DNA of 64,000 nucleotides from Methanococcus maripaludis (lineage in GTDB: Archaea; AGJL01; Methanococci; Methanococcales; Methanococcaceae): the NCBI RefSeq assembly GCF_013760955.1, contig NZ_JACDUL010000002.1:256719-320718 (forward strand), read 5' to 3'. Every line of letters starts with the position of its first letter. Within the stretch, counting starts at the first letter, position 1. The notes under the pieces are model-generated. The model was given only the letters and a program-made list of their open reading frames with translations, was not told where the DNA came from and ran no database searches. The translations under genes were made by a program, and so were the position numbers. This document shows, in pieces, positions 25,341 to 25,976 of the stretch.

Positions 25341-25862
25341 ATGGAAAATTTGAGTTTGTTTACAGTTTCACTTGGTGCGGGACTTTTTGGTTCATACTAC
25401 ACACTAATTAAAATGAAAAAAGACGAAAAAAATACCAAAAAAGAAGAACAGGACTTGCTTGAACTTGAAGTAATTGAGGGACTTCAAAAATTGAAAACCC
25501 ATGCAGTTTCAAAAAATCCTGAAAAAGCATCCGACACCTATGATCTTTTAGAACTTGCCCTTTCACACGATCTTTTGGACGTTACTGTGGTTAACGAGGA
25601 AGGTTTAACGATTATTTCCACATTAAAAGACCCGGAAGAAGTTGCTGGTCAGTACAGTGGTGTTTTCCAAACATTGAATAAAATTATGGGAAATGTTGAA
25701 AAAACAAGCATAAAATCTGGCGATGAATACATATATATATCAACAATTGAAAAGAACGAAATGCCATTTTATATTATTGCAAATTCTTATATCGAAATGG
25801 ATCCAATTGATGAAAAAGAACTTCAAAATGAAGTTATTGGAATTCTTGGGCAGTATATTTAA
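25341..25862 (+). CDS. Membrane-anchored protein with roadblock/LC7-like domain
   Basis: 173 residues. The N-terminal helix (about residues 5-22) is followed by a charged coiled segment (about 25-55). Residues 70-173 look like a roadblock/LC7 fold: a helix, then VTVVNEEGLTIISTL, a helix QYSGVFQTLNKI, strands SGDEYIYISTIEKNEMPFYIIANSYIE and a last helix. Roadblock proteins typically partner small GTPases or act as regulatory dimers. The assignment rests on the secondary-structure pattern and is tentative. It follows the 52-residue paralogue by 28 bases and is followed by a C/D box RNA. Confidence 0.6.
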   Translation: MENLSLFTVSLGAGLFGSYYTLIKMKKDEKNTKKEEQDLLELEVIEGLQKLKTHAVSKNPEKASDTYDLLELALSHDLLDVTVVNEEGLTIISTLKDPEEVAGQYSGVFQTLNKIMGNVEKTSIKSGDEYIYISTIEKNEMPFYIIANSYIEMDPIDEKELQNEVIGILGQYI

Positions 25863-25870
25863 AAAATTAA

Positions 25871-25933
25871 GGCAAATGATGATGTTATCCCCGGCTGAAC
25901 TTGTGATGAGCCATTTTATGATCTGCTGATGCC
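25871..25933 (+). ncRNA. C/D box guide sRNA (predicted 2'-O-methylation guide)
   Basis: All parts are present in order: terminal stem GGCA (25871-25874), C box ATGATGA (25876-25882), D' box CTGA (25895-25898), C' box GTGATGA (25903-25909), D box CTGA (25926-25929) and closing stem TGCC (25930-25933). The C-to-D' guide is exactly 12 nt (TGTTATCCCCGG). Its complement CCGGGGAUAACA is the conserved 23S rRNA sequence that includes the catalytic adenosine of the peptidyl-transferase centre. By the N+5 rule it would methylate the G corresponding to about E. coli G2446 (numbering from memory). The second guide next to box D, TTTTATGATCTG, has no target I can name. It lies just downstream of the 25341-25862 gene. 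Confidence 0.88.
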
Positions 25934-25976
25934 TTTCTTTTTATTTTAATACTATTTCGATAAACTTTTTTTAATT

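Follow-up and report, generated by a model that had tools for sequence, protein, structure and literature searches.

A box C/D guide RNA gene of Methanococcus maripaludis predicted to target the peptidyl-transferase centre of 23S rRNA

Results

A complete box C/D sRNA layout lies downstream of a protein gene

The window, i.e., the whole 64,000-nt stretch of Methanococcus maripaludis DNA that was analyzed, carries on its forward (+) strand a gene for a 173-aa protein (positions 25341-25862) and, with the stop codon 8 bases upstream of it, a segment (25871-25933, +) that, as read from the DNA, has the complete layout of an archaeal box C/D sRNA gene. The order of its elements is GGCA-A-ATGATGA-TGTTATCCCCGG-CTGA-ACTT-GTGATGA-GCCATTTTATGATCTG-CTGA-TGCC. 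These are the C box (ATGATGA, 25876-25882), a 12-nt D′ guide (TGTTATCCCCGG, 25883-25894), the D′ box (CTGA, 25895-25898), a short D′-C′ spacer (ACTT, 4 nt, 25899-25902), the C′ box (GTGATGA, 25903-25909), the D guide region (GCCATTTTATGATCTG, 16 nt, 25910-25925) and the D box (CTGA, 25926-25929), so that terminal RUGAUGA and CUGA boxes, internal D′/C′ boxes and a terminal stem are all found. The initial annotation had listed all the C/D elements together with a GGCA/TGCC stem; all of them are present, and the stem extends to 6 bp between AAGGCA (25869-25874) and TGCCTT (25930-25935). The spacing, which had been called ideal, is so on the 12-nt D′ side but not between C′ and D, where the 16 nt exceed the 10-12 nt per guide given for archaeal C/D RNAs in a review (PMC7994747). 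A T-rich tract directly 3′ of the sRNA (25936-25957, +) is a possible terminator; this tract is T-rich in most relatives and A-rich in several Methanothermococcus.

The host assembly (1.76 Mb) has one 16S and one 23S gene. A strict C-D′-C′ pattern was found at 3 places in this genome and a reversed control pattern at none, and a search of the same genome for second copies of the sRNA found none. The genes for fibrillarin (E 1.9e-98) and Nop5 (E 3.1e-69) adjoin on contig C4, and two L7Ae-family genes are located away from this pair.

The D′ guide is complementary to the peptidyl-transferase centre of the host 23S rRNA

When the D′ guide TGTTATCCCCGG was compared with the host rRNA, 12 of 12 pairs were obtained at 23S positions 2506-2517, which is the sole perfect site, and 0.02% of shuffled guides (frequency 0.0002) equalled this match; the complementarity proposed in the initial annotation was thus borne out. 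The fifth base from the D′ box, C25890, forms a Watson-Crick C-G pair with the N+5 nucleotide, G2510. By alignment to E. coli rrlB, G2510 corresponds to E. coli G2446 and A2515 to the catalytic A2451, G2446 being five nucleotides 5′ of A2451; hence, the earlier placement of the target, the third G of its run, at about E. coli G2446 was right. A search of the literature library for G2446 together with snoRNA found no paper.

Just upstream of the target, at 23S 2483-2494, there is a near-repeat of it (CCAGGGATGACA) that forms 10 Watson-Crick pairs and 1 G-U pair with the D′ guide, with a mismatch at position 3, and it is a possible secondary binding site. In addition, two other C/D sRNAs were observed in the host genome (G000), both outside the window. 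The second one (L068, C4:151840-151876) carries the D′ guide AAAGAGGGTTAT, which matches 23S 1991-2002 in 11 of 12 positions, with N+5 at C1995, i.e., E. coli C1920, a position at which bacteria use a protein enzyme, TlyA, for methylation. The third one (L067, C2:422162-422193, minus strand) carries the D′ guide ACGGAGTAGCTT, whose best fit, statistically weak (10 of 12), is 23S 2498-2509, directly upstream of, and overlapping, the 2506-2517 target.

The sRNA and the register of its D′ guide are kept across the order

By a blastn-type DNA search, three genomes of the genus were seen to have close copies, and the family as a whole to have the D′ half. From 17 sequences a covariance model was built, which, run on 36 genomes of the order, matched the sRNA with E ≤ 4e-9 in 34 of them; the two genomes with weaker matches are 81% and 85% complete. 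The absence from three genomes of the same genus (G002, G005 and G006) suggested by blastn was overturned, since the covariance model finds the sRNA in all three. In these genomes (L172, L173 and L174) its locus is another one and guide position 2 is mismatched; in G002 it follows a KsgA/Dim1-like rRNA methyltransferase gene, recognized by eye. Methanococcus and Methanothermococcus relatives share the upstream gene as neighbour, unlike G011, G025 and the G002/G005/G006 group. Two other genomes (G008, L043; G010, L041) have a D′-C′ spacer of about 19-22 nt, versus the usual 4-6, in which a hairpin looks possible.

Throughout the 34 genomes the position and register of the D′ guide are kept, and the second guide turns over. 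The guide-target pairing was parsed in 33 homologues. Since the parser accepted only guides with CCCC, that part of the conservation counts given below is not independent evidence; the covariance-model E-values are. The position-5 pair is C-G in 33/33; 24 homologues have only Watson-Crick pairs at duplex positions 2-10, 6 have one G-U pair there and 3 a mismatch at position 2, and guides carrying TTGTCCCC form a G-U pair with the target. Drift is seen at positions 1, 11 and 12, in keeping with a report cited in PMC7089733 whose title gives 10 nt as the most that box C/D guides recognize. All 33 homologues have an intact C box and two intact CTGA boxes, and the terminal stem keeps its pairing by two-sided changes (GGCA/TGCC to GGTA/TACC or AGCA/TGCT). 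As the 23S target segment is invariant throughout the order, there is no guide-target covariation to score.

A genuine C/D sRNA might act at this site mainly as a chaperone that helps the peptidyl-transferase region to fold while the ribosome is assembled, with methylation as a lesser role: its target forms the core of domain V, and archaeal guides have been proposed to serve as chaperones (Dennis et al. 2015, PMC4644070). Chaperoning alone, however, needs no exact N+5 register, and the register from D′ is kept in 33/33 homologues, so that we regard this alternative as highly improbable beside guided methylation of G2510.

The second guide has no clear target in the host

The D guide region (16 nt, versus 12 nt on the D′ side) ends with ten bases, TTATGATCTG, that adjoin the D box and are identical in four genomes of the genus; since the bases preceding them vary, TTATGATCTG may be under constraint. 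In Methanothermococcus an A/T-rich sequence takes its place, and in Methanocaldococcus-like genomes (L160-L171) a conserved TAGCAAGCCG does. The latter is complementary to 23S CGGCTTGCTA (own positions 2552-2561, near E. coli 2488-2497), so that in these genomes both guides would aim at the peptidyl-transferase region.

When the D guide was compared with the host's own 16S, 23S and predicted tRNAs, no site clearly beat those of shuffled guides. The best sites were 23S 2632 (3 G-U), 16S 1240 (5 G-U) and 16S 1291 (2 mismatches). At the first of these, positions 2-11 of the guide all pair with GGAUCAUGAG, which would direct methylation to U2636 (the E. coli A2572 position, helix 90) and place both guides at the active site; helices 90-93 are a known hotspot (PMC4644070). 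Three of these pairs are G-U, though, and 26-60% of shuffled guides equal the best rRNA site of the D guide, and we consider methylation of U2636 unlikely.

The initial annotation had also seen in the complement of the second guide the likeness of an anticodon loop with CAU, and the guide could accordingly direct methylation in tRNA-Met or tRNA-Ile2. TTATGATCTG pairs with CGGCUCAUAA by 8 Watson-Crick pairs and 1 G-U, with 1 mismatch; 0.36% of shuffled guides equalled it on CAU loops, in a test that was picked after the guide had been seen; and PMC7668247 describes Cm34 on an M. maripaludis tRNA-Met. The loops compared (one of them, read by eye, from an elongator tRNA-Met gene that has an intron and that ARAGORN misnamed Ser) show a G-U pair at position 2 and a U-C mismatch at position 4, adjoining the target nucleotide, and the initiator tRNA loop has an additional mismatch at position 1. 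Furthermore, the register is off by one: N+5 falls on U33 rather than on the wobble C34, and Um33 is not mentioned in PMC7668247. The proposal is therefore not supported, and a tRNA target of this kind seems quite improbable. The D guide is probably an orphan or aimed at some other target.

The D′ guide pattern was matched in archaea beyond the order

An exact 20-base pattern comprising the C box, the guide and the D′ box was scanned over 84,980 prokaryote species; it matched 14 stretches, and all 14 were archaeal. Read by eye, the matches in a Nanoarchaeota contig (L094, stem AAAGGTT/AACCTTT) and in a Hodarchaeota (Asgard) contig (L107, stem CACT/AGTG) look like complete D′-guide RNAs, and that in Pyrolobus (L097) looks like a D-guide RNA. 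The Hodarchaeota contig also has a hairpin spacer comparable to that seen in G008 and G010. Weak matches in other phyla (e.g., L176, L178, L180 and L181) have different guides and were not taken for this RNA.

This distribution argues against a chance resemblance or a decayed relic in place of an RNA gene. The sRNA is known here from its sequence, as such a relic would be, but it recurs in 34 of the 36 genomes compared within the order, its stem shows compensated changes and its distribution is archaeal-only, which makes the probability of this explanation negligible. The complete D′-guide RNAs in Methanococcales, in Nanoarchaeota L094 and in Hodarchaeota L107 also led us to consider, tentatively and as a rather doubtful proposition, that ribose methylation at G2446 is an ancestral guided modification, borne by a D′ guide and inherited by archaea and by eukaryotes (snR38). 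If this were true, G2446 would be among the very rare guided sites retained through descent.

Discussion

The gene at 25871-25933 of this methane-producing archaeon very probably encodes a box C/D guide RNA whose D′ guide would direct ribose methylation of 23S G2510. The boxes and the stem, the 12/12 pairing, the presence of the machinery genes, the conserved guide and register, the compensation in the stem, the archaeal-only scan and the alignment with snoR38 all point to this reading; an Rfam score below the gathering threshold, the lack of covariation and a 16-nt D side without a convincing target count against it. In the proposed mechanism both kink-turns, C/D and C′/D′, would be bound by L7Ae, which would bring in Nop5 and fibrillarin. 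With 23S rRNA CCGGGGAUAACA paired to the D′ guide, fibrillarin would add a methyl group to the ribose of G2510, which faces guide base 5 counted from D′ and lies beside the catalytic A2451. Expression of the sRNA, RNP assembly and G2510 methylation are what we infer from the genome sequence.

Archaeal guided methylations are reported to differ widely, and among seven species none of the sites was uniform (PMC7994747). A guide that is present order-wide, including mesophiles with few guides, and that is aimed at the nucleotide modified in yeast through snR38 points to a methyl group that matters functionally at the active site. Because M. maripaludis is genetically tractable, removal of one small RNA would probe a single ribose methyl in the peptidyl-transferase centre.

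Among known RNAs, no Rfam family matched anywhere in the window at the gathering threshold. The top-scoring family for the sRNA was the eukaryotic snoR38 (RF00213; 33.9 bits, E 2.3e-4), whose gathering score of 45 bits was not reached, so that the sRNA is not filed in that family. Yeast snR38 guides 25S Gm2815 in the peptidyl-transferase centre, a methylation marked as conserved in human (PMC8307265). The Rfam snoR38 consensus aligns with the archaeal guide at an equal distance from D′: in both, the D′ guide reads UUAUCCC-G followed by CUGA, and pairs with the same GGGAUAAC segment, although the eukaryotic RNA is longer. It is from this shared segment that yeast position 2815 is equated with E. 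coli 2446, the absolute numbers being ones that we take to correspond. The general C/D architecture is also that of Rfam snoPyro_CD, sR1 and sR10, from which the sRNA differs in its guides and in its scores of 25-30 bits against cut-offs of 45. We therefore place the RNA among the archaeal box C/D sRNAs and not in Rfam snoR38, though its D′ guide would work like that of snR38.

The sRNA is ordinary in kind. It may already be among the 7 C/D sRNAs that Dennis et al. 2015 (PMC4644070) give for M. maripaludis C5 by RNA-seq. It differs from the archaeal dual-guide C/D sRNAs in its 16-nt D guide region without a clear target, and shares with them the boxes, the 12-nt D′ guide, the short D′-C′ spacer, the terminal stem and an rRNA target in domain V.
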